This document shows positions 6,954 through 27,400 of a DNA stretch of 42,114 bases, in pieces. The stretch covers positions 1 through 42,114 of the forward strand of contig WRAC01000020.1 of the NCBI GenBank assembly GCA_009780415.1, read 5' to 3'. Source of the DNA: Defluviitaleaceae bacterium (GTDB taxonomy: Bacteria; Bacillota; Clostridia; Lachnospirales; WRAX01). Within the stretch, counting starts at the first letter, position 1; every line of letters starts with the position of its first letter. The position numbers and the translations under genes were made by a program. The notes beneath the pieces are model-generated. The model saw only the letters and a program-made list of their open reading frames with translations. It was not told the DNA's origin and ran no database searches.

Positions 6954-6991
6954 TGATACCACTCCTTCGCGGGGTGTATTCCTTTTTACTA

Positions 6992-7020
6992 AGAATAGCA
7001 TAAATCATTGCTTCATTCAA
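6992..7020 (-). promoter_or_regulatory. Promoter of the LRR/Ig surface protein gene
   Basis: On the minus strand TTGAAT (7015-7020) and TATTCT (6992-6997) are separated by exactly 17 bases, with TGC directly before the -10 (extended -10). This is a good sigma-A type promoter, about 40 bases upstream of the ATG at 6953. Confidence 0.65.
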
Positions 7021-7072
7021 GTATTTTTCCCTGAGTTTATGGAATACTAGTAAAAAATGCGTGGGAGGGTAT

Positions 7073-10194: not shown

Positions 10195-11643
10195 TTGCCT
10201 GATTTTATTAACGCGTTTCTGCGGGATTTTGGGATAGCCGGCGAATATGAACGCATACTGGTTTTCGGGCTTATTGTCGCGTGGCTTGTTGTTTTGATTT
10301 TCCGGCTGTTTTTGGCTGTGGGATATAAGGGGCAGCTCCAGCTTGTCAGGGCCTCGGTTAAGAAGGGGATACCCGATATGGACACGGCGCGCAAGCTGAA
10401 ACCGCCTTTGTTGAAGCGCGCCGCTTTGGATTACGCGGAGCTTGGCGAGCGCGGCATTGTACGCATTGATTCCCGCGACCTTGTACGCAAAAGCGCGGGG
10501 AAACTGCGGTTGCTGTGGTGGAGCTGGGAGAGCGCCGGGAGGTTTCTGGATGCTGTTGAGCCGGCGCTGTTTATCGCCGGGGCGCTGTTTACCGTCGTTG
10601 CCGAGGGGCGCGACGTTTTCGCGGCGTTGACGTTGATTTTGTTTGGCGTGGGCAAGCTGTTTTCAACATTTTTTGATTATAAGCAAACGCGGCAGGAGCT
10701 GATTGACGAAACCGCGTTTTTACTGGATAAAGAGCTTGGAAAAATGTACGTGACCGACGCGGCGGGCGCGATTAATAATTTGCGCGGCGAGCTGAAGGGT
10801 TTGATGACTTATCAGGCTAAGTATCTGGGCGATACCATCCACGAGCTGAAGGATAAGCTTACTGCCGTATCCGAGAAAACACTCGGGGACACGGCGGCGG
10901 CCGTTGAGAAAACGCTGAAGAGCGTCGCCGCCGGAGCGGATACGGTTTTAAAGCCGCTGGAGGAATGGCGGCTTGCCATTACGGATTCCAAGAAGGCTCA
11001 CGAGGAGCTTAACCTTTCGCTGGTAAAAATGAGCACCGCCACCGACGGGTTTAAGGAACGTATTGCCGAGCTGGACCGTCTTATAGACGGATACAAGGCC
11101 GAGTTTCTGGCTAACAACAAAAACGTTGAGAACGCGCTGGTACGGCTTAACGCCCTTACCGAAAGCGTTACGGACATATGCAGGCAGTCCGGCTCGCAAA
11201 CCGAGGCGGTTCAGGGGATGCTTGAATTTGTCCGCAGCAATCAGGGCGTGCTGAAAGAGAGCATGAACCAGTATGAAATCGCGCTGAAGGACATTTCGGC
11301 GCAGGCCGGCGCGGGGCTTGGCAAAATCATTGAGTACCACGCGCAGACCTCTTACAAGGCGCTTGCCGAAAACGCCGCCAAGAGCATACGCGAGGCCGGC
11401 GCTGTTAACGCCGACCTGATGGGCAAGATGCAGAACCTGTTTGACCGAATACTTGAACAAAGCAAAAACGAGACGGCGCTTATTATGAATTTAAAAGAGC
11501 AGATGGAGCTGGAGCTGTCGGATTTAAGGGCTAAAATTGTCGCCAAGGATCACGCGGCGCCGTCCGAACCCTTTGCGTTCCGCGAGGAGCGCGTGATGAT
11601 GCCGGATGAACCCCTTGACTTGACTGCCGGGGATTTAGGTTAA
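10195..11643 (+). CDS. Membrane protein with long cytoplasmic coiled coil
   Basis: First gene of the cluster, 482 residues. It starts with TTG, preceded by AAAGGGGG at 7 to 14 bases. Hydrophobic segments lie at about residues 20-42, 116-136 and 140-160; the last two form a hairpin. From about 163 to 460 the protein is almost entirely helical with many heptad-like Leu/Ala patterns (for example HELKDKLTAVSEKTLG), so a long coiled-coil tail is likely. The tail ends in a flexible acidic stretch. The three-segment-plus-tail plan resembles MotA/TolQ/ZorA-type proteins, but I see no diagnostic motif of these. The next gene begins at the base after the stop, so translation is probably coupled. Inference: it may tether the chaperone machinery to the membrane. 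Function unknown. Confidence 0.8.
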   Translation: MPDFINAFLRDFGIAGEYERILVFGLIVAWLVVLIFRLFLAVGYKGQLQLVRASVKKGIPDMDTARKLKPPLLKRAALDYAELGERGIVRIDSRDLVRKSAGKLRLLWWSWESAGRFLDAVEPALFIAGALFTVVAEGRDVFAALTLILFGVGKLFSTFFDYKQTRQELIDETAFLLDKELGKMYVTDAAGAINNLRGELKGLMTYQAKYLGDTIHELKDKLTAVSEKTLGDTAAAVEKTLKSVAAGADTVLKPLEEWRLAITDSKKAHEELNLSLVKMSTATDGFKERIAELDRLIDGYKAEFLANNKNVENALVRLNALTESVTDICRQSGSQTEAVQGMLEFVRSNQGVLKESMNQYEIALKDISAQAGAGLGKIIEYHAQTSYKALAENAAKSIREAGAVNADLMGKMQNLFDRILEQSKNETALIMNLKEQMELELSDLRAKIVAKDHAAPSEPFAFREERVMMPDEPLDLTAGDLG

Positions 11644-12846
11644 ATGGACTTGACAAGAGAATTGTTGGAACAATATGAATATTCGCTGCCTGTAATAAAG
11701 GCGGATAAGAGCGAGATACGCCTTGAAACGTCGCGGGACGCGCGGGGCAGTATTGAGCTGCGCAACTCCGGCGGCGGCGCGCTTGAGGGGAGCGTTGCGT
11801 CGAACCTGCCCGCCCTTGCCTTTGCTCCCAAGCAGTTTGCGGGCAACAAGGCGCGGATTGAGTTCAAGTTTAACCTTGGCGCGTATGAAGCCGGGGATGT
11901 TATTGACGGGCGCGTTTTTATCGTTTCAAACGGCGGCGAGCTTATTCTGCCCGTACATATAACGATTACGTCGCGTACGCTTACTACGGATGACGGCACG
12001 GCGCTGTCCACGCTTGAGGATTTTCTGGCCTATACCCAGGCGAACGCGCCGGAAGCCGCGCGTACCTTCGCGCGCAAGGATTTCGGCGAGTGGCTTCTGA
12101 CCATGCCCGGAAACGTGAACCTGGAGCTGTATGAGCATTTTAAGTTTGATTCCAATAAAGAACGCGCGGTTGACAACTTCCTTATCTGCCATGGGCTGAA
12201 GCGGAAATCGGAGCTTGCGCTTGAAAGCTCAAGTACGGATATTCAGGTTATACCGGGGCAGAAGGACGGGATAAGCGGTGTGATCGGCGTGCGGCGCTGT
12301 GTTGACGGTTTTGTGGAGGCTGCGGTGAGTACGGCTGGCGCGGCCCCTTGGCTGCGGTTGATTACGAACAGGCTGACGGCGTCTTCGTTTGATAAAAACG
12401 GGGTTTCATGCATTGATTATGTTATAAATCCCCTGATTCTGGACAGCCGCCGCGTTATGGCGGATGTCGCGGTGAAAACGGCGGGCGGGCAGCTCGTCCA
12501 CAGGCTGTTTGTGCGGACGCTGCCGGTTATGAGCGTAAGCCTTAATAAAAACGCTTACGTGATGTCCGATACGGGCAAGGTGATGCTTGAAAACAACACC
12601 GGCGGCGACCTTGTGGTTGAGATTATGCCCAAGCACGATTTTATGAAGTTTGAGGGCAAACGGTACCTGATCGGCGCGCGGGCGGATATACCTTTCGAGA
12701 TTAAGCTGACACCGCAAAAATTGGCGCTGCTTGCCGACCGCGATGTTTTTTACGCGCGGACGGAAATTATGGTTAAAACGGTTTACGGCAGTACGGTATT
12801 TACAAGGGCGCTTGAACTGGGCGTTTCCACGCATAAAGGATTTTAA
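11644..12846 (+). CDS. Beta-sandwich-like protein of unknown function
   Basis: A 400-residue protein starting directly after the stop of the membrane protein gene. It has no signal peptide or membrane segment. The N-terminal 110 residues look like an Ig/ASH-type beta sandwich (IELRNSGGGALEGSVASN and INGRVFIVSNGGELILPVHI-type strands). A helical patch follows at 115-195 (EDFLAYTQANAPEAARTF), and the last 190 residues are again alternating beta strands. With the next gene it resembles, from memory and tentatively, the two halves of DUF5717-type proteins that occur beside Hsp70 genes in Lachnospiraceae. If that is right, the protein is split here. The cytoplasmic location is inferred from the lack of an export signal. 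Confidence 0.75.
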   Translation: MDLTRELLEQYEYSLPVIKADKSEIRLETSRDARGSIELRNSGGGALEGSVASNLPALAFAPKQFAGNKARIEFKFNLGAYEAGDVIDGRVFIVSNGGELILPVHITITSRTLTTDDGTALSTLEDFLAYTQANAPEAARTFARKDFGEWLLTMPGNVNLELYEHFKFDSNKERAVDNFLICHGLKRKSELALESSSTDIQVIPGQKDGISGVIGVRRCVDGFVEAAVSTAGAAPWLRLITNRLTASSFDKNGVSCIDYVINPLILDSRRVMADVAVKTAGGQLVHRLFVRTLPVMSVSLNKNAYVMSDTGKVMLENNTGGDLVVEIMPKHDFMKFEGKRYLIGARADIPFEIKLTPQKLALLADRDVFYARTEIMVKTVYGSTVFTRALELGVSTHKGF

Positions 12847-12851
12847 TTTAA

Positions 12852-15569
12852 ATGGCGGGTAAATCGATTCTGAACAAAATAGCGAGGCTGGAGAATATGC
12901 ACCGCGGCAACAACGCGCCCCGCGCGGCTTGGGCGCTTATTTTGCGATATTACCAGCACTACAGGCTCACGGGCGACAGACAGAGCCTTGAGCGCGCCGC
13001 GCATCTGTGCCAGACGTATTTTGCTATAAATTACCATTTCATCTGGGCTTATTTTTTGAATATATATATGGAGCTGGAGCAGGGGCACACGCCTAAGGCT
13101 CAAATAATGCTGGAGAAGCTGAAGCCTTTCCGCGGAGACATGAAGATGCGGCCCATGGCGTACGCGGCGTATTTGTTCCTGTACGCCGCAACGGACTTAA
13201 AAAGGGGGAAGGCGAGGGGAGCGAGGAAATCCGTCTCGCTTCTGACGTCGCTTGCTTCCAATTTACATGATCCGCGTATTTACGCGCTTTTGGGCGGGTA
13301 TCATATCCTGTCGCATGAGCGTGAGCCGGCGTTGAAATATTTGCTTGCCGCATTGAACGGCGGCGGGATGTTTTTGTATATCTTTGCCCATGACTTTTTC
13401 ATGAAGGAGCGGTTTGAGGGCGAGGAATCCTCCGCGCTGCTGGCGGCGTACGCCCGGTTTGCGCTGGCGCACGGTATGAATAATGATTTGAGCGTTGCGG
13501 CCGGGCGCAACAGGCAAGCCGTTCTGATGTTCGCGCAAAAAGACCGGGCGCTGGGGTACGCGGTTTATGACGCGCTGGAGCCGGACTGGCTGCTGGAAGG
13601 TCTTGTAAACCGGCAGATAAACGACAGGGAAAACAGTAAAATCGCTTTGAAGTACTATATAGCGGCGGAACAGCGGCAGATATCCGTTCCGGGGCTGGCG
13701 GAGGCGCTGGTTACGGCGGCGAGGGTTAACGAGCATTTTGACATCAGCCGGTATACGCTGGAGCGGTACTTTAAGGAATCCGACGGCGAAGACCTTAAAA
13801 CCGGGATGTTTGCTTATTATATCATTGAGGGGTTCGGGGGCATTGTTCCGGGGCCCGGGGCCGTGCGGTTCCTGCTTAGGATGCTGGAGGTGGGGGCAAG
13901 CTCGCCTTATATGCCGGCGTTATGCATGTTATTGCTGCGCGGGCTGGATGACAAGGACGGGCGGTACGCGGCGTATACGGGCAAGGCTTCGCAGATTGTG
14001 AAGGAAGCCGTGTTCCTGCATGACGTAAAGGTTGAAAACCCTGCCGCGCGGTATATTTGGGTGTTTGAGGATGAGAAGGCTTTTTCGAAGATTTACGAGC
14101 TGAACAGCGGCAGGACGGTTGTGTCCGCCGTCAAACCGGATTTTACGTATATTTTGTTTGACGATTCGATGAAGAATATTATCGGCGGGAATGTATCAGT
14201 TCAGTGCAAAGTGGGGGGGATGCCGGATTCCGGCTTCCTGAGCAAGCTTTATGAGAGCGGGTTTGCGCCGCCGGAGCTGCTTATCGCGCTGTCGAAGCAT
14301 TATATTGAAAAAAACGGGGTGGATGCCGGGGGATTGGAGCTTTTGCATAAAACCGCCGGGCATAAGGATATATCGGCGCGGTTCAAGGCGCGGGTGCGCG
14401 CGGCGCTGGGCAGTTACCACGCGTCCGGGGGGAATTATGCCGAGGCCGTGAAATATTATGAAGCCACGCCGCCGGGGTTTTTGGACGCCGCCGGGGTGGA
14501 GAGGATGCTGCTGGCGTATGTAAACGGCGGAATGCTGAAGCACGCGGCGGATATCCTTGCCAAGCGCCCGGTGATATCGGATAAGGCTTTGTTTTACTGC
14601 GTTCGGAAGCTTACGGCAGATAAGAAGCTGCATAAAGACGTAGCTGCCGCGGCGTATGAGCTGGTGCAGAAAAGCTGGTACGATAAAAGCCTTGTTACAA
14701 TATCGCTGGAGCATGCTCATGCCAGCCAGCGCGAGTGGCAGGAATTTTCGCGCACGCTGATAAGCCTTAACGCGCCGAGTGAGATTTTGGATGAGAACAT
14801 AATAAATAACGCGATTTGGACGCGCCGCTTTGACCCGGGCGCGCAGAAGGTTTTTGCCGCGTTTTTCAGCCGCTCCCCGCAGAACCCGTATATTATGGCT
14901 TTTGCGCTGTACGCGGCGTTCGAGGCGATTATTAACCACGCCAAACCGGAGTATGAAACCATTGAGGTGCTTGAAAAACTGGCGCTGGGCCCTATGCCGG
15001 AGGACGCGGGCGGCGCGGCGGACATACGTTTTATACATTACGCGCTGTGCCACATTTATCTGGGGCATGGCATAACGACGTTTTCATCGGGGGAAATTTT
15101 ACGGCAGGCCATAGCTTTTTGTGAGACGGACGGCATTATTTTCCCTGTTTTTAAGGAGATTAAAGACAAAAGCCTGCTTACCCCGTATATTGAGAAAAAT
15201 CAGACCTTTATATACAGGGGCGGAAAGGGGAAGCGCGTAAAGCTGTTATATAAGCCGGCGAACGCGTCCGAGTTCGCGCAGAAGAGTATGCGTTATATCC
15301 GTTTCGGGCTGTATGCCGCCGGTATACCCGTGTTTTATGGGGAAAAACTGAATTATGCGGTATCCGAGGAAAGCGCCACGGGCAGTATTATGACAAAGGA
15401 AGCGGAAACTCAAAACAGTGTGATGCGTATAGTTGAAAATACCGGCGATATGTATTATGTTATAAATAACGCTATAATTTATGAAAGCATGTTTAAGTAT
15501 GAGGCGGTTGAGGAGATTATTAACGGGCATTTGAAAGAAGTGCCGAGGGTTAAGGCCTGGCTGATGTGA
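12852..15569 (+). CDS. Large helical-repeat (TPR-like) protein of unknown function
   Basis: A 905-residue protein beginning 5 bp after the previous stop; AAAGGA lies about 12 bases upstream of the ATG, a weak site. Most of the length is made of paired helices in the style of TPR or HEAT solenoids (ALGSYHASGGNYAEAVKYYE is the clearest unit, about residues 515-535). There are no membrane segments, and no catalytic motif is recognised. The C-terminal 150 residues change to a beta-rich domain (QTFIYRGGKGKRVKLLYK onward). It probably works with the preceding beta-sandwich protein as one unit, and by tentative recall the pair corresponds to a DUF5717-type protein. A scaffold role for the Hsp70 proteins encoded downstream is an inference from position and repeat content. 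Confidence 0.75.
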   Translation: MAGKSILNKIARLENMHRGNNAPRAAWALILRYYQHYRLTGDRQSLERAAHLCQTYFAINYHFIWAYFLNIYMELEQGHTPKAQIMLEKLKPFRGDMKMRPMAYAAYLFLYAATDLKRGKARGARKSVSLLTSLASNLHDPRIYALLGGYHILSHEREPALKYLLAALNGGGMFLYIFAHDFFMKERFEGEESSALLAAYARFALAHGMNNDLSVAAGRNRQAVLMFAQKDRALGYAVYDALEPDWLLEGLVNRQINDRENSKIALKYYIAAEQRQISVPGLAEALVTAARVNEHFDISRYTLERYFKESDGEDLKTGMFAYYIIEGFGGIVPGPGAVRFLLRMLEVGASSPYMPALCMLLLRGLDDKDGRYAAYTGKASQIVKEAVFLHDVKVENPAARYIWVFEDEKAFSKIYELNSGRTVVSAVKPDFTYILFDDSMKNIIGGNVSVQCKVGGMPDSGFLSKLYESGFAPPELLIALSKHYIEKNGVDAGGLELLHKTAGHKDISARFKARVRAALGSYHASGGNYAEAVKYYEATPPGFLDAAGVERMLLAYVNGGMLKHAADILAKRPVISDKALFYCVRKLTADKKLHKDVAAAAYELVQKSWYDKSLVTISLEHAHASQREWQEFSRTLISLNAPSEILDENIINNAIWTRRFDPGAQKVFAAFFSRSPQNPYIMAFALYAAFEAIINHAKPEYETIEVLEKLALGPMPEDAGGAADIRFIHYALCHIYLGHGITTFSSGEILRQAIAFCETDGIIFPVFKEIKDKSLLTPYIEKNQTFIYRGGKGKRVKLLYKPANASEFAQKSMRYIRFGLYAAGIPVFYGEKLNYAVSEESATGSIMTKEAETQNSVMRIVENTGDMYYVINNAIIYESMFKYEAVEEIINGHLKEVPRVKAWLM

Positions 15570-16076: not shown

Positions 16077-17759
16077 ATGGGAACATTGGGTTTGGATTTA
16101 GAACGCGGGTTGTTTTTGGGCATAGACTTCGGGACGACCAACTCTGTAATCAGCATTTATAATTTCAAGGACGGCGAGGCGCAGACCATCCCGATAGACG
16201 GGTCTAATATTTTTCCGACCGCCGTGCAGTTTGAAGTTGACCCTGACGACGAGAAGAAGCTGAGCCGCGTCTTTGGCGTGCAGGCGAAGGAAGCCGCGGT
16301 TATTTATCCCGGCAGCACGGTGCTGAGCATTAAAAGGCTGCTTGGCAGCGAGGAAAAGGTTAATATTACGGTGGATGAGAAGGAGTTTTCTTTTACGCCG
16401 GAGCAGATCGCGGGCGAGATTTTGGGGTATCTTAAAACGAAGGCCGACGAGTACGCTCAGGAGGAGCTGGCTTTGCCCGGCGAGTTTTCGGGCTGTGTGA
16501 TTACGGTTCCCGCGAACTCGACGGACAAGCAGAAGAAGATGACCAAGCAGGCCGCGGTACTGGCGGGTTTTGACGAAGACAGCGTTTATCTGAGGCTGGA
16601 GCCCGCGGCGGCGGCAATCAGCTACGCGGTGAACGAGACAAGGGATAAAAATGTGCTGGTCTACGACTTCGGCGGCGGTACCTTTGACGCCTGTATGCTT
16701 AAAATCAAGGCCGACGAGGAAAACGCGGGCGAGCCTACCATTTCGATTTTATCAACTTACGGCGACAATGATTTGGGCGGCAACGATATTGACAAAATTA
16801 TTATGGGTATTATTTATGAGGAATTCCGGAAGCTTACGGACAATGAGATAGATTTGTTTGACGCGGAAGCCGACGACGGCATTTCAAGGCGTCAGAAGAA
16901 GGTTGCGCTGGTGCGCTTGCAGCAGATGGCGAATCAGGCCAAGGAACGGCTTTCGCAGGCAAAGACGACGAAGATCGTGCTGGCGCCGTTTATTCAGGAG
17001 CCGAGGATTATTAACATCAACATGGAAATATCGCGCGAGGATTTCATTAACCACAGGCGCGTGAACGTTTTGGGCGACGACCCCGCGGTGTTTGAGAAGT
17101 TTAACGGCAAGAACCTGTATGAGATTATTGATATTACGCTGAATTGCGTCGATAGATGCCTTGAGGCGGCGGGTTTGGCGGCGGGCGATGTGGATGAGAT
17201 TTTCCTTGTGGGCGGCAGCTCCTCCGTTACGATGGTGGGCGAGCGCATACGGGAGAAGTTCGGCAAGGAGCCGTTTAAATCGAAGATAAGCCCCGCGTTG
17301 TCGATATCCCAGGGCGCGGCGTATTATTGCAATATGATTATGATGCCCACGCTGAAAGGCCCGACGGTGCAGGAAAGGACGATACACCCGCTGGGTCTTG
17401 AGATTGCCGGGCGGCGCTTTTTGCAAATCGTTTCTCAGGGCGTTGACATACCGAGGGAGGGCCTTGTGGTTGAGGCTTCGGACTTGCTTACAACTAACTT
17501 TGACGGCGTGACGAGCATGGCAATCGTTGTGTATGAAAACACGAACCCGCCGGCGGCGGGGCGCGATGCGAGCGTGTCGCAGGATGGCATGAAACGCCTT
17601 TCCGGCACGCAGCTGCGCGGCATACCCGCCGGGCCGAGAGGTCAGGAAAAGGTGCGGGTTATCTTCACCGTGGGGCAGGATAATATGCTGAAGGTTACGG
17701 CGCAAAGCACCTCCACAACCGGGGCGGTTACGGAGCTGACGGTAGACGAATTATATTAG
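16077..17759 (+). CDS. Hsp70-family protein 1 (ATPase motifs intact, no lid)
   Basis: A 560-residue DnaK-like protein. ATG 16077 has GAAAGGAG upstream at 7 to 14 bases, so an earlier in-frame codon is rejected. The nucleotide-binding domain (about 13-395) has phosphate-1 GIDFGTTNSV, the conserved Lys in SIKRLLG, the proton-handling LEPAAAAISY, phosphate-2 VYDFGGGTFDACML and the adenosine motif FLVGGSSSVTMVG. A substrate-binding beta domain follows (PLGLEIAG to the end, including GIPAGPRGQEKVRV). The alpha-helical lid of about 100 residues found in DnaK is absent. This is therefore a specialised Hsp70, not the housekeeping DnaK. It is the first of four Hsp70-type genes here and is followed 15 bp later by the GrpE-like gene. 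Confidence 0.92.
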   Translation: MGTLGLDLERGLFLGIDFGTTNSVISIYNFKDGEAQTIPIDGSNIFPTAVQFEVDPDDEKKLSRVFGVQAKEAAVIYPGSTVLSIKRLLGSEEKVNITVDEKEFSFTPEQIAGEILGYLKTKADEYAQEELALPGEFSGCVITVPANSTDKQKKMTKQAAVLAGFDEDSVYLRLEPAAAAISYAVNETRDKNVLVYDFGGGTFDACMLKIKADEENAGEPTISILSTYGDNDLGGNDIDKIIMGIIYEEFRKLTDNEIDLFDAEADDGISRRQKKVALVRLQQMANQAKERLSQAKTTKIVLAPFIQEPRIININMEISREDFINHRRVNVLGDDPAVFEKFNGKNLYEIIDITLNCVDRCLEAAGLAAGDVDEIFLVGGSSSVTMVGERIREKFGKEPFKSKISPALSISQGAAYYCNMIMMPTLKGPTVQERTIHPLGLEIAGRRFLQIVSQGVDIPREGLVVEASDLLTTNFDGVTSMAIVVYENTNPPAAGRDASVSQDGMKRLSGTQLRGIPAGPRGQEKVRVIFTVGQDNMLKVTAQSTSTTGAVTELTVDELY

Positions 17760-17774
17760 TGCTGGGATAATAAA

Positions 17775-19709
17775 ATGGCAAAATTCGCAAGCAGGTATCA
17801 AAGGCATGTAAATGATCGCGAAACGCGGATGCTGAGGCTTTGGCAGGCCGCTGTTTCGCCTGTGGACGCCTTTTACGCCCAAATGGCGGAAGGGCTGTTC
17901 CGCGCCGTAAAATGGGCGGTGGCGCAGAAGCTTGACCGCCTGCTTATGGACGACGGGCGTTTTTCCCATTGCGATACGCGGATTAACGATTATTACAAAA
18001 AGCTGATGTTTTATTACGCGAACGCGTTACGGCTGCTTAACCAAGCGGCTGAATACGCGAAGGCCGGCGGGATGGATAAAATCACGGGGATTGTCGGCGG
18101 GATGTCGGCTGTGGTGATGTCGCGGCTCAAGGCTTATGAGGATAATAACAGGGCCGGGAGCAGGGAAGGGGATTCACGCGAATTGGAAGCGGCCCCGAAT
18201 CAGGCCATGTCCGAAAAGCAAATGCTGGTTTCCCGGCATATCCTTGTTTTTTCGGATAACTTCGGCATGGTTTCGTACAGGCCGCGTTCGGAGCTGTACG
18301 CGGAGATGTTCCATGCCACGCGGATGAGGTTTATTAATTATGAGGGCGTGGATTTCGCAAAGGAGCTATACGGGCAGGCGATTCGTATTATATGCGAAAA
18401 GGGATTCCCGAATTTTTACGAGCTGTATAAACAGAGCCTACAATCCGCCGGGCTTGAGCTGTGCGGGTTTTATCACAGGAACGCCGCAGCGTATTACGGC
18501 GCGGAGCTGCTGGGAGAGCATGAGATTCTGCGTAACCTTGCCACCGTGCAGGTTCCGGCGCTGGCCCGGGTGAATGACCGGATACCGTATACGGATAACG
18601 TTAAACGCGCGGCTGACGAAGCTATAAACGGCGTAATGGCGGCGTATCAGTCGCTTTCCCGCGATGTGGCGGAGATTTCCGAGGCCTTGCAACAGGCGGG
18701 GTTGGCAACGGCGGAGCCCGAGGAATATGAAGCCTTTGCCGGCAGTCTGCTGGATGCCGTTGCAGAGGAAACTTACGCGGATAATGCCGTATCGGACGCG
18801 GTTTCCGGGTTTGAGACGCGGTTTGAGGCTATGCGCCAGGCTTTTGGCAAGGAGCTGTCCGACGCGGTTATTGGCTGGCAGGATTTGGATAAAAATGCCA
18901 AAGACCCGGCGGAAGCCGCAAGCGAGATGATAGATGCGGAGATTGCCTTAGCTGCGGGGATACGCGATATTTTCGAGGGGATACACCGGTATTTTGACGA
19001 AGACGAGCGGCTTAAAACCGACGATAGCGCGGACGGGCGTATTTCCCAGGGAATTGCCGAGACGGTTTTTATAAAGGTTGAGAGTTTAAACGAAGCGGCG
19101 GCGGGGCTGCGGGCGGATATGGAGGCGTTGCGGGAAAAGCTCTCAACGGAGGAGCGGAAAGAGTTTCCATGGCTGGACGAGCTTGCGGCAAGCGCTTTTG
19201 AGGGAATGATCGGAGAAGTGGCGCGGTTTCAGAAAGAAGACCGCCGCGCTTTGTCCGCTATAATGAAATATATGAATTTTCGGACGGACAACGAGTTTTA
19301 CGCGCCTTATGCCGCGCGTGTGCCGCGGCCCGGGGTAAAAACCCTTGAACAGATTGAAATGAAGCTGTTAAAGTTTAAGAAGGAACAGACACTTTACGAA
19401 GTCAGCACGTTTGAGGAAATACAGCTTTATTCGGTGACGCGGCTGCGTGAGTCCGGGGCCGGCCATATAAAGGATTTTGTGAGGTTGCTTGACGAAGCCG
19501 CCGGGCGGATTTCGGAAATCCTTGCCGGGTACGGCATACAGGCCATCAGGCCCGATACGCGCGATATGTTCAACGGGCGCGAACATGAGGTATTAATGGC
19601 CGAACAGAATGAGAGTTTCAAAAAAGGTGAGATTATCAAGCTTTTGAACAGCGGATACAGGCAGGGCGAGGTAATCCTGCTGAGGGCGAATGTGATTGCG
19701 GCAAGGTGA
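17775..19709 (+). CDS. Large helical protein with a GrpE-like C-terminal domain
   Basis: A 644-residue soluble, mainly helical protein. Residues 1-580 have no recognised domain; the helices between about 350 and 560 are charged and coiled-coil-like. The last 62 residues (583-644) follow the pattern of the GrpE beta domain: LAGYGIQAIRP corresponds to the GV..I.P.G segment, MFNGREHEVLM to FDPNLHEAVM, then KGEIIKLLNSGY and GEVILLRANVIA match the closing G.V...L..GY...G.vLRPA.V.V strands. The preceding helices would act as the GrpE long helix. GrpE releases ADP from Hsp70, so this is probably a nucleotide exchange factor for the neighbouring Hsp70s. It might correspond to DUF5716-type proteins (uncertain memory). 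Confidence 0.75.
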   Translation: MAKFASRYQRHVNDRETRMLRLWQAAVSPVDAFYAQMAEGLFRAVKWAVAQKLDRLLMDDGRFSHCDTRINDYYKKLMFYYANALRLLNQAAEYAKAGGMDKITGIVGGMSAVVMSRLKAYEDNNRAGSREGDSRELEAAPNQAMSEKQMLVSRHILVFSDNFGMVSYRPRSELYAEMFHATRMRFINYEGVDFAKELYGQAIRIICEKGFPNFYELYKQSLQSAGLELCGFYHRNAAAYYGAELLGEHEILRNLATVQVPALARVNDRIPYTDNVKRAADEAINGVMAAYQSLSRDVAEISEALQQAGLATAEPEEYEAFAGSLLDAVAEETYADNAVSDAVSGFETRFEAMRQAFGKELSDAVIGWQDLDKNAKDPAEAASEMIDAEIALAAGIRDIFEGIHRYFDEDERLKTDDSADGRISQGIAETVFIKVESLNEAAAGLRADMEALREKLSTEERKEFPWLDELAASAFEGMIGEVARFQKEDRRALSAIMKYMNFRTDNEFYAPYAARVPRPGVKTLEQIEMKLLKFKKEQTLYEVSTFEEIQLYSVTRLRESGAGHIKDFVRLLDEAAGRISEILAGYGIQAIRPDTRDMFNGREHEVLMAEQNESFKKGEIIKLLNSGYRQGEVILLRANVIAAR

Positions 19710-19713
19710 TTTG

Positions 19714-21324
19714 ATGACGTATAGCTGGAAACTGTACCGTAAACGGCTTAATGAAGGTTTCCTTGACGCCAAGGCGAGGGAGTCGCTGTTTGTGCTGGGG
19801 CTCGATTTGGGGAACCACAGCTCGTCGCTGGCTTTTTATGATATTAACCGGAATATGCCGGAGGTTATTGATGTAAGCGGCGGGTACGGCAAACCCAGTA
19901 TGCCCACGGCTTTGCAATATGTGAGGGAATCGCGCGAGTGGGTTTTCGGCGAATACGCCCTGCTGAACCGCGGTACGACGTCTGACACGATATATACGGG
20001 GCTGCTTGAAAAATTGCCCAAAAAGGAATATCTTGACGTGGACGGCAAACCCGTCGCCACGGAGCAGGTAATGGGCACATATCTGCGGGAGTTTCTGGCA
20101 AACTGCCGGAATATAAACCCCAAAGCCGAATTTGCGGGCATAACGCTGTCCGTTCCCGGCTATACCTCTGACGAGAGTAAAGAGGCGATTTTACAGGTTT
20201 TTAAGCTGTCGGGATATGAAAAACCCCTGATTTCCATGGATTCGGACAGGGAGTGCATTTTCTCCTGGTATTTTCACAGGAAGCCTCCCAAGGCGGAAAA
20301 GGTCGCCTTGCTGGATTTTGGGTCGCGGGAGCTGCGCGGCGGGCTTTATGATATCGTCCCCGGCAAGAACGGGGAGCCGGCATTGATTAGGTGCTGTTCA
20401 TCGCTGTTTGATAAAAGCTGCGGCACCGATGTGGTGGATTCGCATGTGACTCGGTTTTTAACCGATTTTTACCTGTCAGAAACCAATACCCCCGCAAACC
20501 GCCTTGACCCGCGTATTGCCAGCCAGATACAAGCCTTCGCGTATCAGCACAAAGACCTTTTGTTCCAGCAGGCAAGCGGGTCGCGCCCGGTGAAGCTTTA
20601 TTATAATTTTGTGTATCCGCCCATTGTTTGCAGCGTTACGGAAAAAATAATGACCGATTTTCTAAGCCCGCACAGGGAGAGGTTTACGGATTTTTTGAAC
20701 CGGCTGTTTAAAAAGTCCATAACCGATTCCAATTTGTCGAAGGACGATATCGATGCGGTAATTTGCACGGGCGGCGGGTTTGAGATGCTTTGGGCAAGGA
20801 ACCTCGCGGCGGAGTTCTTCAGCGGAGCGGAGATCCTTGTGGGTAAAAACCCAAAGTCCGCGGCGGCAAGCGGCGCGTCCGTACGCTCGGCGCAGGCGCT
20901 TGGTATTACGGAAGCCGTCCCTTTCCACATTGAGGACAGCCATATGCTGAAGGTGGATATCGGCGTAAGCGTGCGCACGAAGAGCCAAAACCACAAGCGC
21001 GAGCGGTTCTTCCCCATTGCCGAAAACGGAAGCTTCTGGTGGCAGGAGCGTGAGCCCGTCACGTTTATCTACGGCGGTGAAACCGGTGAGGCCGAGAATT
21101 CAGGCGGTATATCGTTCTTTAGCCGGAACGCGGAGGGTGAGCAAAGCGAATTGGGTATAATATCATTGGACGGCCTGCCCAAGCGGCCCGCCGGGACGAC
21201 GCGCCTGAACCTTGGGCTGACGTTTACCCAGCCGGGGCGCATTACGGCGACACTGCGGGACGTTGGGTTCGGGGAGCTGTTCCCGACGGCTGATTTTGAG
21301 CGCAGGGTTGAGCTGGTGATTTAA
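19714..21324 (+). CDS. Hsp70-family protein 2, pseudo-ATPase
   Basis: A 536-residue protein with the Hsp70 fold but degenerate ATP motifs. The ATG is 4 bp after the previous stop, with AAGGTGA just upstream. Phosphate-1 reads LDLGNHSSS (Asn34-His35 instead of Thr-Thr), and phosphate-2 reads LDFGSREL (Asp201, with GGGT lost). The VKRL lysine segment is replaced by TGLLEKL and the SEPxAAA segment by SMDSDRECI. The adenosine motif ICTGGGFEML is partly kept. The C-terminal beta domain, GLPKRPAGTTRL, closely matches protein 3 (GLPRRPSGKTRL), and both have similar N-terminal extensions, so these two look like a tandem duplication with one copy having lost catalysis. The helical lid is absent. A structural or regulatory role is likely. 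Confidence 0.85.
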   Translation: MTYSWKLYRKRLNEGFLDAKARESLFVLGLDLGNHSSSLAFYDINRNMPEVIDVSGGYGKPSMPTALQYVRESREWVFGEYALLNRGTTSDTIYTGLLEKLPKKEYLDVDGKPVATEQVMGTYLREFLANCRNINPKAEFAGITLSVPGYTSDESKEAILQVFKLSGYEKPLISMDSDRECIFSWYFHRKPPKAEKVALLDFGSRELRGGLYDIVPGKNGEPALIRCCSSLFDKSCGTDVVDSHVTRFLTDFYLSETNTPANRLDPRIASQIQAFAYQHKDLLFQQASGSRPVKLYYNFVYPPIVCSVTEKIMTDFLSPHRERFTDFLNRLFKKSITDSNLSKDDIDAVICTGGGFEMLWARNLAAEFFSGAEILVGKNPKSAAASGASVRSAQALGITEAVPFHIEDSHMLKVDIGVSVRTKSQNHKRERFFPIAENGSFWWQEREPVTFIYGGETGEAENSGGISFFSRNAEGEQSELGIISLDGLPKRPAGTTRLNLGLTFTQPGRITATLRDVGFGELFPTADFERRVELVI

Positions 21325-21524: not shown

Positions 21525-23174
21525 ATGAACTGGGAAGAATATCGCAAGGAAATTGAGGCGCGCGGGAATTTGCCGGAAGAATGGTATATTTTGGGCATAG
21601 ATTTGGGTACGACCAATTCGGTCATCAGCTATTGGGACAACCATGGCAGGCAGCCCGTGCCGGTGGATATCTCCAACGGCTTTGGTAAAATTCCGCTGCC
21701 CAGCGTTGTGCAGTTCCGGGCGGGGGAAGCCAATCTGGCGGCCCACAGTTCGGGCGCGCCGGGCGAATGGGTTATAGGCGAGGAAGCCTACCGCTCGTTC
21801 AAGCTTTATCCCGAAACGACGGTGCGCTCGGTAAAGCGCAAAATGGGTACGGATGAGCGGATAAAGCTTGGAAGCAAGGATTATTTGCCTGAGGAGATAT
21901 CGGCGCTTATATTGAAGGAGCTTGCCGGGCATGTGCAGAATCTGAACCCCAAAGCTGAGATTGCCGGGCTTGTTGTGTCGGTGCCGTATGATTTTGACGA
22001 CGCGTCAAAGAAGGCGACTATGCGCGCGGTGGAGCTTGCCGGGCTTGGGGACAAGCTTATCTGCCTGATTGAGGAGCCTAAGGCCGCGGCGCTTGCCTAT
22101 AACTTCCGGCGCGAGCTGAGCGCGGACGAGCGTATCCTGGTGTTTGACTTCGGCGGCGGAACCCTTGATATTACGCTGTTCCATGTGACGGAAAAAACAG
22201 AGGAGAAGCTGACGCTACAGGTGATTTCCGAGGGCGGCGAGGCCAGCCACGGCGGCGATATTATCGATGAGCTGCTGACCGAGCGCTGTTACGGTTATAT
22301 TCAGCATAAAACCGGCGTTGAGGCTTCGGATATCGCGCCGGAGAACCAGGCCGAGCTCATCACCCGCGCGAGGGAGGCTAAGGAGCGGCTCAGCGGCGTT
22401 AAGAGCTTCCGCATACCGTTTACGTTCTGTATCCCGCCGTTCGTGGAGCAGATAACGCGCGAGGATTTTGAGGCGCTTGCCGGGAATTTTATCGAAAAGA
22501 CGCGGAAGCTTACGTTGAAAACGCTGCGCGAGGCTTATACCGGCGCTATTTCGGCCGATATGGTGGACCGTGTGCTGCTTGAGGGCGGCTCGTCCCAGAT
22601 GCCTTGGGTCAAAAATATGCTGATCGGAATTTTTAACGACGAAAATAAGATTTATGTGAGCGAGCGGCCCGCGCTGGATATATCGCTTGGCGCTACGTAC
22701 TACGCCGCCATGAAGATGGGGCTTTTGCAAAACCCCGATATGCAGACCGACCGCTATAACGTGGAATTTTTAGTCACTGTGCCGCATGATATCGGCATAG
22801 AGCTTGATGGCGCGAAAAAGAGTTTCTTCCCCATGATCAGGCGCGGGACGCCCTATGAGTTTGCGAAAAAAAGCCAGGTGTTTACGCTGTCCGGGAATTC
22901 GCCCGAGGATATGACGGAATTTTACCTTAAAATACTTGAGCGGATCGACAAGGAGCATAGGCTTGAGGATTGCAAGCTGATTGGCGAGGTGGAGATCTCC
23001 GGCCTGCCAAGGAGGCCCAGCGGTAAGACGCGGCTCAAGATTACGCTGATGGTGGAGGAAGAGGGCGGATTGGTTAAGGGGAGCGTCAGTGATTTGGGGT
23101 TTAACGGTGAGTTTGAGCCGAGCGGGTTTAATGAGGACTTTTCGCCGGAGAGGTACAAAAAGATTAAATTGTGA
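21525..23174 (+). CDS. Hsp70-family protein 3 (ATPase motifs intact, no lid)
   Basis: A 549-residue protein with a short N-terminal extension (residues 1-22) before the nucleotide-binding domain. Motifs: phosphate-1 GIDLGTTNSVIS (Asp26, Thr29, Thr30), SVKRKMG with the conserved Lys, IEEPKAAALAY, phosphate-2 VFDFGGGTLDITLF and the adenosine motif LLEGGSSQMPWV. The beta-type substrate-binding domain ends with GLPRRPSGKTRL and a short acidic tail, with no helical lid. Resemblance to pseudo-ATPase protein 2 in both termini points to tandem duplication. AAAGGA lies about 10 bases ahead of the ATG, downstream of the MITE-like element, so translation starts normally. Whether transcription reads through the foldback element from the upstream genes is open. 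Confidence 0.92.
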   Translation: MNWEEYRKEIEARGNLPEEWYILGIDLGTTNSVISYWDNHGRQPVPVDISNGFGKIPLPSVVQFRAGEANLAAHSSGAPGEWVIGEEAYRSFKLYPETTVRSVKRKMGTDERIKLGSKDYLPEEISALILKELAGHVQNLNPKAEIAGLVVSVPYDFDDASKKATMRAVELAGLGDKLICLIEEPKAAALAYNFRRELSADERILVFDFGGGTLDITLFHVTEKTEEKLTLQVISEGGEASHGGDIIDELLTERCYGYIQHKTGVEASDIAPENQAELITRAREAKERLSGVKSFRIPFTFCIPPFVEQITREDFEALAGNFIEKTRKLTLKTLREAYTGAISADMVDRVLLEGGSSQMPWVKNMLIGIFNDENKIYVSERPALDISLGATYYAAMKMGLLQNPDMQTDRYNVEFLVTVPHDIGIELDGAKKSFFPMIRRGTPYEFAKKSQVFTLSGNSPEDMTEFYLKILERIDKEHRLEDCKLIGEVEISGLPRRPSGKTRLKITLMVEEEGGLVKGSVSDLGFNGEFEPSGFNEDFSPERYKKIKL

Positions 23175-23505: not shown

Positions 23506-24093
23506 ATGTCGGAACCGGCATTGGATTATGTTAAACAAAGAACAAGGGTTGAGCTGCATGACGGGCGGATTGTGGCGATGTCGCCGGGGCATTCCACGAA
23601 TCATGGCGCGGTGTCTTTTAATATTTCAAGCATTTTCCGCCGTTATTTGAAAGGGAAACCGTGCCGCATTGTGCCGGATGGTATCTATTTGCGTTTATCC
23701 GAGAAAGACCGATTCTTGCCGGATGTGATGATTGTTTGCGATAAAGAGAAGTATAAAACCGACGCTGTTTATGGCGCGCCGGATTTGGTGGTTGAGGTGC
23801 TTTCGCCCAGTACCAAGAATTACGATAGGGGTTATAAAAAAAGTGTTTACGAAAAATTCGGCGTTAAGGAGTATTGGCTGGTAAATACGGACAGCCGCTC
23901 CGTTGAGGTGCATTTGCTGAGGGACGGGCGGCTTGAGTTTGATAATGAATACGCGGTTTATCCCGATTATTACTTGGAAAGTGATCTGCTGCTGACGGAT
24001 GAGGAAAAAGAACGGATTGTGAAAGAGTTTTCACCGTCTATATTCCCGGAAATGGTGATATCGATTGAGGAAATCTTCGAGGGAATGATATAA
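23506..24093 (+). CDS. Uma2-family (DUF820) PD-(D/E)XK nuclease-like protein
   Basis: A 195-residue protein with the standard Uma2 length and motif order: MSPGHSTNHGAV, LPDVMIVCD (Asp73), then APDLVVEVLSPST (Glu97), and KKSVYEKFGVKEYWLVN with the conserved Lys near residue 112. Uma2 proteins have a restriction-endonuclease-like fold; their cellular role is unknown, though their frequency in multi-copy genomes is well known. GAGGAGGG is a strong ribosome binding site. It interrupts the Hsp70 series and may be an insertion unrelated to it, since it lies next to a probable replication-gene remnant and carries its own -10 element. A second Uma2 gene at 34274-34849 (-) has the same MSEPA start. 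Confidence 0.88.
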   Translation: MSEPALDYVKQRTRVELHDGRIVAMSPGHSTNHGAVSFNISSIFRRYLKGKPCRIVPDGIYLRLSEKDRFLPDVMIVCDKEKYKTDAVYGAPDLVVEVLSPSTKNYDRGYKKSVYEKFGVKEYWLVNTDSRSVEVHLLRDGRLEFDNEYAVYPDYYLESDLLLTDEEKERIVKEFSPSIFPEMVISIEEIFEGMI

Positions 24094-24144: not shown

Positions 24145-26217
24145 ATGAGTTACTTAGGAATAGACCTTGGCACCACTAACTCGGTGGCTATTATTTACAA
24201 GGACAAGACGGATCAGCTTGAAGTGGTTAAAATTGACGGCACGGATGAAATACTGCCCAGTGTAGTAACCTTTGCCGAGGAAGGCGTTATCGTTGGATCC
24301 GAAGCGAAGAGCGGCGCGATAATTTATCCCGAAAACACGGTGATTTCGGTGAAGCGGCTGATGGGCGGCACGGAGAAGCTGAACATCGGCGAGCTGGCTA
24401 AGTCGCCCGAGGAAATCAGCGCGGAGATCCTGCGCAAGCTCAAGCATTGCGCCGAGGAGCAGGCCGGGGAGATTTTTGACGAGGTTGTGATAACCCATCC
24501 CGCGTACTTCAACGACCGGCAGATTTTCGCCACGAAACAGGCCGGCGCGCTTGCCGGGTTTAAGGAGGTTTTCCTGCTTTCCGAACCGCTGGGCGCGGCG
24601 ATTGAATACGGTTTCCGTCAGGCTTACGCGCAAACCTTACTGGTTTATGATCTGGGCGGAGGTACGTTTGACGCCTGTGTGCTGGAGGTTGGCAAGGACG
24701 AAAACGGGCAGGAGATTTTTCAGGAGCTTAGCGACGTCGGCGATATGAATCTGGGCGGCGACGACTTCGATTCCGAACTTATCCGCTGGATGAAGGAGAA
24801 ATTCAAGGAGGATACGCAGTTTGACCTGGACGATTTACAGGAGCCGGAACGCAAGCGGGTTTTGCAAAAGCTTAAACTGGAAGCCGAGCAGACCAAGAAA
24901 AAGCTGAGCGGCGCGAACAAGGCCAGCGTGCGGGTAAACCCCATAACCATCCTTGACGGCGTGCCGATGAACCTGAGCCTTGAGATTACCCGCGAGGAAT
25001 TCGAGGCAATGATCCGTAAGTATGTTGACCGTTCACGCGATATCATTGAGGAAGCGCTGAACAGAGCGGGAAAGGCCGCCGATGAGATTTCCAAGGTCAT
25101 TTTGGTGGGCGGTTCGACCTTGATCCCGATGGTGCGGCGTATGGTCGCCGGATTTATAAAGGAACCGTACCGCGCGACTGACCCGGCGAAATCCGTGGCC
25201 ATGGGCGCGGCTATATATAATTATTTGATACATCTGCCGGGCTCGAACGTTAAGGTCGGACAGATTACGCGGCAGATTTTCGGCACCGAGGCCGTTACGA
25301 ACGTCAGCACCAAGGAACGCAGCCTGATCCCGATTATTCCGATGGGAAGCCCGATACCGTCGCGTTTTTCCGACGCGAACTTCGCGTCAAGCGGCGCGCC
25401 CGTGGTTAATGTTGACGTGTTCCAGTGGGAGAGCGGGCATGAGGCCGATAAGAAGTACATCGGCAGCGTCGTCTTAACGGGCCTGAAGGGCACAACGCAA
25501 ATCGAAATCACGTACGCCATTGACAAAAACAACCTTTTCGAGGTTTATGTCAAGGATATCTCCACCGGGCATACCGAGCGCGCGGAGTTTGACCGTACAA
25601 AGGAAAACGCGCCGCCCAAGCGTGAAATCGGGGCTTTCGGGGCTGCGGTGAACATTGTTTTCGTTATCGATACAACAGGCTCTATGGATACCTATATCAA
25701 CGGCGTGAAGGACCGCGCCATCGAATTTTCGAACATCCTTGCGGATAAGGGCTGCGTGTTTAAGCTGGGGCTTATCGGTTTCGGCGACCTTGGCGAGAAG
25801 GAGAAGCCCAGCGTCTATAACTTTACCGACGACGTAACCCGCTTCCAGAAACAGGTTAAGAATATACCGCGCACCTATGGCGGCGACATACCGGAATCCA
25901 GCCTTGAGGCCCTTGAAACCGGCGTGCAGTTGCTGGAATCCGCGCGGGTTGATCCGGGCTCAAAGAACATTTTCATCCTTATCACCGACGCGCCGCCGCA
26001 TGTCCCCACCTATGACGGCAAGAGCGTGCGCGATATCTGCAATATACTGGCTTCGCGCGATGTAACGACATATGTTGTGGCGAGAAAAGACCGCGAATCC
26101 ATTGACGCTTACGATCCGCTGACCAAGCCCAGCGGCAAGTATTATGACCTGAATGATAAGTTTTATGATATTCTGGATAATATCGCTATCAGTATCGCGG
26201 AGCTGATAAGGCTTTAA
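24145..26217 (+). CDS. Hsp70-VWA fusion protein (Hsp70-family protein 4)
   Basis: A 690-residue protein. Residues 1-370 are an intact Hsp70 ATPase: GIDLGTTNSV, SVKRLMGG, SEPLGAAIEYGF, VYDLGGGTFDACVL, LVGGSTLIPMV. A substrate-binding beta domain follows to about 495, including VLTGLKGTTQIEITYAID and YVKDIST. Where DnaK has its helical lid, this protein has a von Willebrand A domain (about 503-690). Its metal-ion-dependent adhesion site reads DTTGSM (Asp509, Ser513), with Thr577 in TYGGDIPES and Asp615 in ITDAPPH. VWA domains bind protein ligands through Mg2+ and often partner MoxR-type or chelatase ATPases. The fusion suggests ATP-driven handling of specific protein partners. GAGGAG precedes the ATG. 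Confidence 0.93.
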   Translation: MSYLGIDLGTTNSVAIIYKDKTDQLEVVKIDGTDEILPSVVTFAEEGVIVGSEAKSGAIIYPENTVISVKRLMGGTEKLNIGELAKSPEEISAEILRKLKHCAEEQAGEIFDEVVITHPAYFNDRQIFATKQAGALAGFKEVFLLSEPLGAAIEYGFRQAYAQTLLVYDLGGGTFDACVLEVGKDENGQEIFQELSDVGDMNLGGDDFDSELIRWMKEKFKEDTQFDLDDLQEPERKRVLQKLKLEAEQTKKKLSGANKASVRVNPITILDGVPMNLSLEITREEFEAMIRKYVDRSRDIIEEALNRAGKAADEISKVILVGGSTLIPMVRRMVAGFIKEPYRATDPAKSVAMGAAIYNYLIHLPGSNVKVGQITRQIFGTEAVTNVSTKERSLIPIIPMGSPIPSRFSDANFASSGAPVVNVDVFQWESGHEADKKYIGSVVLTGLKGTTQIEITYAIDKNNLFEVYVKDISTGHTERAEFDRTKENAPPKREIGAFGAAVNIVFVIDTTGSMDTYINGVKDRAIEFSNILADKGCVFKLGLIGFGDLGEKEKPSVYNFTDDVTRFQKQVKNIPRTYGGDIPESSLEALETGVQLLESARVDPGSKNIFILITDAPPHVPTYDGKSVRDICNILASRDVTTYVVARKDRESIDAYDPLTKPSGKYYDLNDKFYDILDNIAISIAELIRL

Positions 26218-26245: not shown

Positions 26246-27400
26246 GTGCTAATAATCCCGGTATCCGCGCAGGACGCGGCTGTTGCGTATAAGTTCAAGG
26301 CTACGGGCGTTGGAGTTTTCTCGTTTGAGGAGGCGCTGTACCACTGTATGCATTTTTGGAAGCAGAGCGTGGACGATTTTATGTGCGAGGAGTTCGTTAG
26401 TTGGGTTAAGAACGAGCTGGGGCTTAGCTTTATATCGTCGAAGATACGGGAACTGGAAAAGATTCAGGGGTTCGCCGAGCGGTTATTGAGGTTTCTTTCG
26501 CTGACGGATTATTTGGATTTCAGTGATGTTGAGGGACTTCGCGGGGAGCTTGCGGAATGGGAAAGCCGGAAGGAATGGGAGAAGCTAAAGGAACGCGGCG
26601 ACGATTTGATGGACAAGAGCGAGCCGGAGAAGGCGTTCGCGCTGTACAGCAGAGCGTTGGTATTCGCCAATAATGTGGCGCTTTATAATAACGCGGCTAT
26701 CGCGCTGATGAAACAGGGGGATTTCGCCGGCGCGGTGGAGTATTTGAAGAAGGCGCTGTATCTGGAGCCGGATAATGTGGAGGTTTTGCTGCATTTGGCG
26801 GAGGCTAATATATTAAACGGGTCGTTTGAAGCGGCTGGGAAGCTGCTGGACGCCGCTCAGGTTTACGGGGAGCGCGCCGAGATTTATTTTTTCCGTGCCG
26901 AGATACAGGAGAGAGCGGGGAATGTGCATGGTTCCGTGCCGCTGTTTGAAAAGGCCATTGAGCTCGACGCGAATCCGCATTATGTGTACAGGCTGGCCGA
27001 TGTGTATGTGAAGCTGCGCCAGTACGAGCGGGCCACGAAGATTATGGAGGGCGCCCCGGTTAAGGATAAGGCTTACTTGAAGAAACAAGCGGAGCTGCAT
27101 GTTGAGAATAACAATATTCCGGCGGCGATAAAATGTATCGAGCAGGCGATTGTTAAAAATAGGGGCGATGCGGGCCTTTGGGCGCGGCTGGCTTCATACC
27201 ACCGGAGTAATTATGACCACGACAAGGCCCACAGCGCCATTACGACGGCCATTGCCATAGATCCGGCAAGCGCGCGGGTAAACCTTGAATACGCGCGGGT
27301 ACGTAAGGCACAAGGGCGCATAAAGGATTATCAGGTAATTCTGAACCGCGTATTGGATGGGCTGAAAAACCGTTACAGGGAAAATGTGAACTACGAGTAA
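26246..27400 (+). CDS. TPR-repeat protein, last gene of the Hsp70 cluster
   Basis: A 384-residue soluble protein starting with GTG, 28 bp after the Hsp70-VWA stop, with AAAGGG about 11 bases upstream. Residues 1-110 are helical without a known domain. From about 110 a series of TPR motifs runs to the end (ERGDDLMDKSEPEKAFALYS, NNAAIALMKQGDFAGAVEYL, and at least five more). TPR proteins are common Hsp70 co-chaperones or scaffolds that bind partner tails, and the position supports such a role here (inference). No J-domain HPD motif is present. It is followed by a change to small, probably unrelated genes, so the cluster appears to end here. Confidence 0.85.
   Translation: MLIIPVSAQDAAVAYKFKATGVGVFSFEEALYHCMHFWKQSVDDFMCEEFVSWVKNELGLSFISSKIRELEKIQGFAERLLRFLSLTDYLDFSDVEGLRGELAEWESRKEWEKLKERGDDLMDKSEPEKAFALYSRALVFANNVALYNNAAIALMKQGDFAGAVEYLKKALYLEPDNVEVLLHLAEANILNGSFEAAGKLLDAAQVYGERAEIYFFRAEIQERAGNVHGSVPLFEKAIELDANPHYVYRLADVYVKLRQYERATKIMEGAPVKDKAYLKKQAELHVENNNIPAAIKCIEQAIVKNRGDAGLWARLASYHRSNYDHDKAHSAITTAIAIDPASARVNLEYARVRKAQGRIKDYQVILNRVLDGLKNRYRENVNYE

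Follow-up and report, generated by a model that had tools for sequence, protein, structure and literature searches.

In the usual account, an Hsp70 needs its lid to capture clients stably and J-proteins to choose them, and to our knowledge remodelling guided by von Willebrand A (VWA) domains has so far been tied to AAA+ motors. In the MoxR AAA+/VWA pairs (CbbQ-CbbO, NorQ-NorD, RavA-ViaA and Rea1), an ATP motor is combined with a VWA client adaptor that bears a metal site (MIDAS). CbbQO acts on rubisco and NorQD on NO reductase, and CbbO and NorD need their MIDAS residues for client action, not for motor assembly (PMC4660213, PMC9976466). The HSP70/GrpE theme of the GAP1-N2 GTPase-centred conflict systems, according to the passages devoted to it in Kaur et al. 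2020 (PMC7159879), comprises extra HSP70s with their own GrpE and with TPR proteins, includes some shortened HSP70s and occurs in Firmicutes; those passages contain no Hsp70-VWA fusion. In CoCoNuT systems, CnuD and CnuCD repurpose a module of the Hsp70 nucleotide-binding domain (NBD) and substrate-binding domain (SBD) within a multi-gene bacterial system, in which VWA proteins are sometimes encoded nearby (PMC11090510). In open-licence PMC text we found neither a description of an Hsp70-VWA fusion nor a functional paper on DUF5716 or DUF5717.

Here we report an Hsp70-VWA fusion, and the operon around it, from a Defluviitaleaceae bacterium. The window, that is, the whole stretch of DNA analysed, comprises 42,114 nucleotides of contig WRAC01000020.1. 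The fusion recurs in many gut bacteria, in a conserved operon with other lidless Hsp70s, and for that reason is probably no sequencing accident but a protein-remodelling machine of a dedicated and so far undescribed kind. Hsp70-VWA shares the fold of the NBD and the SBD-beta and the ATPase motifs with canonical DnaK, but it lacks the lid, carries a VWA domain, has an altered linker and is not encoded beside dnaJ. It resembles the MoxR/VWA pairs in joining an ATP motor to a MIDAS-bearing VWA domain, whereas its motor is an Hsp70 and both parts are fused in one chain. The operon shares with the GAP1-N2 theme the additional HSP70s that come with a GrpE of their own and with TPR proteins, but neither GAP1 nor a GTPase nor a component fused to DnaJ was found in it, and unlike CoCoNuT, where the NBD/SBD module is fused to McrC/McrB parts and TerY-like VWA proteins are on separate genes, McrB and McrC were absent among the cluster proteins scanned. 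Pfam searches detected no MoxR gene among the cluster proteins scanned (AAA_3, MoxR-type, genes lie on other contigs) and no GAP1 or GTPase match in the operon proteins, even at E values up to 10 for the unassigned ones. Each of these three closest described systems is thus without its defining match here, and membership in the MoxR-vWA, GAP1-N2 or CoCoNuT systems was rejected on that ground.

The fusion gene and its parts are as follows.

24145 to 26217, + strand: Hsp70-VWA fusion gene, an open reading frame with an ATG start encoding 690 aa
24145 to 25230, + strand: Hsp70 NBD, residues 1-362, with invariant catalytic motifs, also seen in the model
25231 to 25278, + strand: interdomain linker, residues 363-378, with V-K-V-G-Q conserved and Q373 and R376 invariant
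25279 to 25602, + strand: peptide-binding beta domain (SBD-beta), residues 379-486, from alignment and model
25603 to 25644, + strand: variable flexible joint, residues 487-500, with 26% mean pairwise identity, also flexible in the model
25645 to 26214, + strand: VWA domain, residues 501-690, at the position of the alpha-helical lid, from Pfam and model

Pfam assigned the protein to HSP70 (E 7.8e-96) and, above cut-off, to VWA_4 (residues 504-619, E 4e-11) and VWA (residues 503-650, E 2e-7). The NCBIfam DnaK models cover residues 4-480, equivalent to profile positions up to about 490 of 596-625, so that the match ends at the lid start; the score of 348 bits lies below the equivalog cut-offs of 648 and 823. 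Identity to canonical DnaK is about 34-41% over residues 3-481. An AlphaFold2 model built on the orthologues alone reached a pLDDT of 68.6, and with DnaK, Hsp70-C and VWA relatives added (a 59-row alignment) the mean pLDDT was 87.8, with values below 50 only at residues 493-499. In this model the Hsp70 NBD leads into the SBD-beta sandwich, which a short flexible joint connects to a VWA-type domain with a complete alpha/beta fold. Against E. coli DnaK in the ATP-open state (4b9q), residues 1-487 of the model match DnaK residues 2-505 with a Z score of 49.8 and an rmsd of 3.3 A over 470 residues. In DnaK the lid begins after about residue 505; in Hsp70-VWA the DnaK homology ends at 480-487 and is followed by the VWA domain, the alpha-helical lid being absent. 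A fold search of the PDB with the whole model gave, among the matches listed, Hsp70 chains only, which bears on the Hsp70 part and not on the VWA fold. By its NBD and SBD-beta the protein is therefore a member of the Hsp70 superfamily, as a variant with an altered linker. The preliminary description had named an intact Hsp70 ATPase and beta domain followed by a VWA domain in place of the lid, and had suggested structure prediction as a check; the Pfam assignments, the invariant motifs and the structural match to DnaK uphold the first point, and the model placed a VWA-type domain after the SBD-beta, with no lid.

The same domain order was found in other genomes, the second check proposed there. 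A scan of species genomes yielded 60 Hsp70-VWA loci, from which 60 distinct full-length orthologues were extracted; these are 72-88% identical to Hsp70-VWA, and further orthologues extend down to 56%. Of 146 genomes sampled from the order Lachnospirales, 59 contain the SBD-VWA junction as a single match, with identity over the junction down to 51%, and the fusion is unbroken in the single-contig genomes G051, G405 and G412. The 60 intact orthologues and the single-contig genomes rule out an assembly artefact. No Hsp70-VWA was found outside the order in a class sample of 291 genomes and a phylum sample of 398, both of which include some order members. Viral contigs contained no copy, nor did plasmids at a coverage of at least 80%, nor phages, where only crAss-type VWA proteins matched at about 30%; a mobile or viral origin was rejected on these grounds. 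At one locus (L109 5340-7384 of genome G018), Hsp70-VWA is split into two overlapping frames of 198 aa and 494 aa, owing to a frameshift or to an error in sequencing.

Every ATPase motif checked is kept and matches DnaK. Among 28 orthologues, divergent ones included, the invariant NBD residues are D7, T10-T11, K70, P119, E147, D169-GGGT174-x-D176 and G322-G323, from which we infer ATPase activity. The linker reads V-K-V-G-Q in the Hsp70-VWA orthologues versus I-L-L-L-D in DnaK, and in place of the hydrophobic LLL type this sequence means that NBD-SBD allostery may differ from that of the chaperone cycle. Mean pairwise identity is 75% for the NBD, 74% for the VWA domain and 66% for the SBD-beta, which makes the last the fastest-changing folded domain. 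An invariant Thr occupies the place of the DnaK peptide-pocket residue I401, in a region where the alignment is approximate. Lid-truncated C. elegans Hsc70 keeps ATP hydrolysis and loses refolding activity (PMC3315512), and classical folding is accordingly unlikely for the lidless Hsp70-VWA.

The VWA domain carries three conserved segments.

25669 to 25683, + strand: MIDAS motif 1, D509-T-T511-G-S513, with D509, T511 and S513 invariant
25879 to 25896, + strand: MIDAS loop 2, G579-G-D581-I-P583-E584, an integrin-beta-like DxPE, invariant except at 582
25984 to 26010, + strand: MIDAS loop 3, T614-D615-A-P-P-H-V-P-T622, by conservation

The metal site had first been drawn from Asp509, Ser513, Thr577 and Asp615. 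D509, S513 and D615, together with T511, proved invariant in the 28 orthologues. Position 577 is T in 25 of the 28, N in two and F in one, and S, D, G or N in VWA relatives outside Hsp70; this poor conservation makes T577 very probably not a metal ligand. G579-G580-D581-x-P583-E584 is invariant in all 28, and D581 and E584 are, by sequence, the more likely candidates for the third-loop ligand. The stretch is the counterpart of DxPE in integrin beta I-like domains; HMMER brings up these domains too, with weak matches. The Glu of DxPE is a ligand of the MIDAS metal in integrins, and by analogy E584 may be one in Hsp70-VWA. The domain shares the motifs DxTxS, DxPE and TDA with integrin beta I-like domains and with secreted bacterial VWA proteins (DTTGSM...GGGDTPE), with weak Pfam and PDB sequence matches. 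The latter signature also marks its nearest relatives outside the order in the class and phylum samples, which are predicted to be surface proteins. The integrin and secreted bacterial domains are extracellular, whereas Hsp70-VWA is fused to an Hsp70 and has no strongly hydrophobic segment by hydropathy. In the MIDAS-face loops, a set picked by the analyst from predicted secondary structure and known VWA topology, 29 of 48 positions are invariant versus 28 of 142 elsewhere in the domain (Fisher p 3e-7) and two of 28 in the other VWA loops. This pattern points to a conserved contact face. The conserved MIDAS residues thus support a putative metal site. It is plausible that the VWA domain binds one specific partner through the metal, perhaps, as originally proposed, another protein of the cluster; the strong conservation of the MIDAS face and the role of VWA domains in AAA+ systems (PMC4660213, PMC9976466) agree with this. 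The view that Hsp70-VWA is an ordinary accessory DnaK paralogue with the VWA domain as an inert passenger, for which one may cite the mobility of VWA domains and the predicted surface proteins nearest in sequence, is very improbable, given that the VWA domain is as well conserved as the NBD, that its MIDAS is invariant and that conservation is high across the MIDAS face.

The remaining members of the operon are given below.

10195 to 11643, + strand: coiled-coil protein with a hydrophobic (transmembrane-like) N-terminal segment, at the upstream end of the operon
11644 to 12846, + strand: DUF5717 N-terminal part (Pfam E 7.7e-38), a conserved neighbour
12852 to 15569, + strand: DUF5717 C-terminal part, with weak TPR-like matches
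16077 to 17759, + strand: Hsp70-B, lidless, with intact ATPase motifs
17775 to 19709, + strand: GrpE-headed protein, 644 aa, with the GrpE head at residues 569-641 (Pfam GrpE E 3.3e-9; alignment)
19696 to 21324, + strand: DUF5716, a lidless Hsp70 relative with degenerate ATPase motifs
21525 to 23174, + strand: Hsp70-C, lidless, with intact ATPase motifs
26246 to 27400, + strand: TPR-repeat protein, a conserved downstream neighbour 28 bp past Hsp70-VWA

Comparison of loci gave the conserved order coiled-coil, DUF5717, Hsp70-B, GrpE-headed, DUF5716, Hsp70-C, Hsp70-VWA and TPR, and this order is kept down to 51-56% identity. The hydrophobic N-terminal segment of the coiled-coil protein is conserved in its relatives. 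DUF5716 carries DFGSRELRG at the site of the DLGGGTFD motif. The GrpE-headed protein, a putative dedicated nucleotide exchange factor, is fast-evolving; its first 560 residues match no family and the GrpE head stands at its end. None of Hsp70-B, Hsp70-C and DUF5716 continues past the beta domain into a lid, so the VWA domain may have joined an Hsp70 that had no lid to begin with, instead of being exchanged for one. The idea that the lid had been replaced thus holds anatomically, the VWA domain being in the lid position, while a swap may not have taken place. In a tree, Hsp70-VWA, Hsp70-B, Hsp70-C and DnaK form one clade each with high support; the branching order among the four is not safe, because long branches meet.

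The canonical grpE-dnaK-dnaJ set is on another contig (C25), separate from the operon, so the GrpE head of the operon is additional to it. The operon encodes no J-domain protein, and the only J-domain match in the genome is the one next to dnaK. All 59 Hsp70-VWA genomes have Hsp70-B (present in 60 of the 146) and DUF5717 (75 of 146), and 56 of the 59 have Hsp70-C (57 of 146 overall), as raw counts that ignore kinship. The three without Hsp70-C (G001, G407 and G421) are 88-94% complete, and in G011 Hsp70-C is present and the fusion is cut short. Genomes with DUF5717 beyond the Hsp70-VWA set are mostly from family f6. The four f6 loci read consist of DUF5717 and DUF5716, joined in two cases by a weakly TPR-like gene, with no Hsp70s beside them.

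Several other genes lie in or next to the operon. A Uma2-type endonuclease gene (23506-24093) sits inside it between Hsp70-C and Hsp70-VWA, and a 45% relative separates Hsp70-B from the GrpE-like gene at another locus (L123), which suggests a passenger gene that inserts into this operon. A clostripain-family protease with a hydrophobic N-terminus (7061-8890) adjoins the operon. The Uma2, clostripain and glyoxalase genes are not conserved neighbours across loci and were rejected as parts of the system. On the - strand, positions 2694-7001 encode a protein of 1435 aa in which BspA-type leucine-rich repeats are combined with four stretches that match Ig/I-set domains (Ig_3 E 1.9e-47); these domains are eukaryote-like and unusual for a bacterial protein.

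We consider it about an even call that Hsp70-VWA remodels specific clients in an ATP-driven cycle on a lidless Hsp70 framework, with the VWA domain capturing one particular partner. The Hsp70 ATPase would drive opening and closing of the beta domain, and the lidless protein would hold clients briefly, with the VWA domain supplying specificity and residence time. In place of lid closure, the MIDAS metal would bind a surface carboxylate on one particular partner, captured as VWA domains capture partners for AAA+ motors (CbbQO, NorQD). Hsp70-VWA would work with the two lidless Hsp70s, DUF5716, the GrpE-headed exchange factor and the TPR/helical-repeat scaffolds, and the membrane coiled-coil protein may tether the set to the membrane. 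This reading is favoured because of the invariant ATPase residues, the GrpE head in the operon, the conservation of the MIDAS face, the co-occurrence, the kept gene order and the role of the MIDAS in CbbO and NorD; it is weakened by the altered linker, the lack of a J-domain protein in the operon and the loss of refolding in lid-truncated Hsc70. More specifically, and only tentatively, we suggest a dedicated machine, tethered to the membrane, in which three active Hsp70s without lids and a pseudo-Hsp70 act with a GrpE of their own and without a J-protein of their own. The VWA domain fused to one of these Hsp70s would serve as a metal-dependent adaptor for clients, which would make the machine the Hsp70 equivalent of the MoxR-VWA systems.

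The main rival to a remodelling factor is a structural assembly, in which the Hsp70s would be nucleotide-switched parts of the actin/Hsp70 fold in a membrane-tethered DUF5717/DUF5716/TPR complex and the VWA domain would join subunits, with no chaperone-type client. DUF5716, which has lost the ATPase motifs and by sequence kept the fold, fits such a role, as do the lidless state of all operon Hsp70s, the frequent helical-repeat and membrane coiled-coil neighbours, and an SBD-beta that is the least conserved domain and has, in an approximate alignment, the invariant Thr at the I401 position. However, three Hsp70s with full ATPase motifs and a retained GrpE head suggest active nucleotide cycling, and we regard the structural role as somewhat unlikely. 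Less probable still is a role of the operon in defence or conflict, along the lines of the HSP70/GrpE theme and with the VWA domain serving in threshold sensing. HSP70, GrpE, TPR and VWA parts do recur in the conflict systems covered by the relevant passages of PMC7159879, the operon is patchy (about 40% of sampled order genomes) and a clostripain-type protease lies upstream in the window, but that protease is not a conserved neighbour, Pfam found no GTPase, GAP1 or MoxR in the cluster, the Hsp70s are slow-evolving with one clade each, PADLOC gave only weak general Hsp70 or coiled-coil matches, and the searches of plasmids (at least 80% coverage), phages and viral contigs found no copy of the fusion.

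A remodelling role for Hsp70-VWA would link Hsp70s to the VWA-guided remodelling strategy. As a natural Hsp70 with a VWA domain at the lid site, in an operon whose Hsp70s are all lidless and which has no J-protein, it offers a direct test of alternative means of client choice and residence time, and its operon would open a first way into the functions of DUF5716 and DUF5717.
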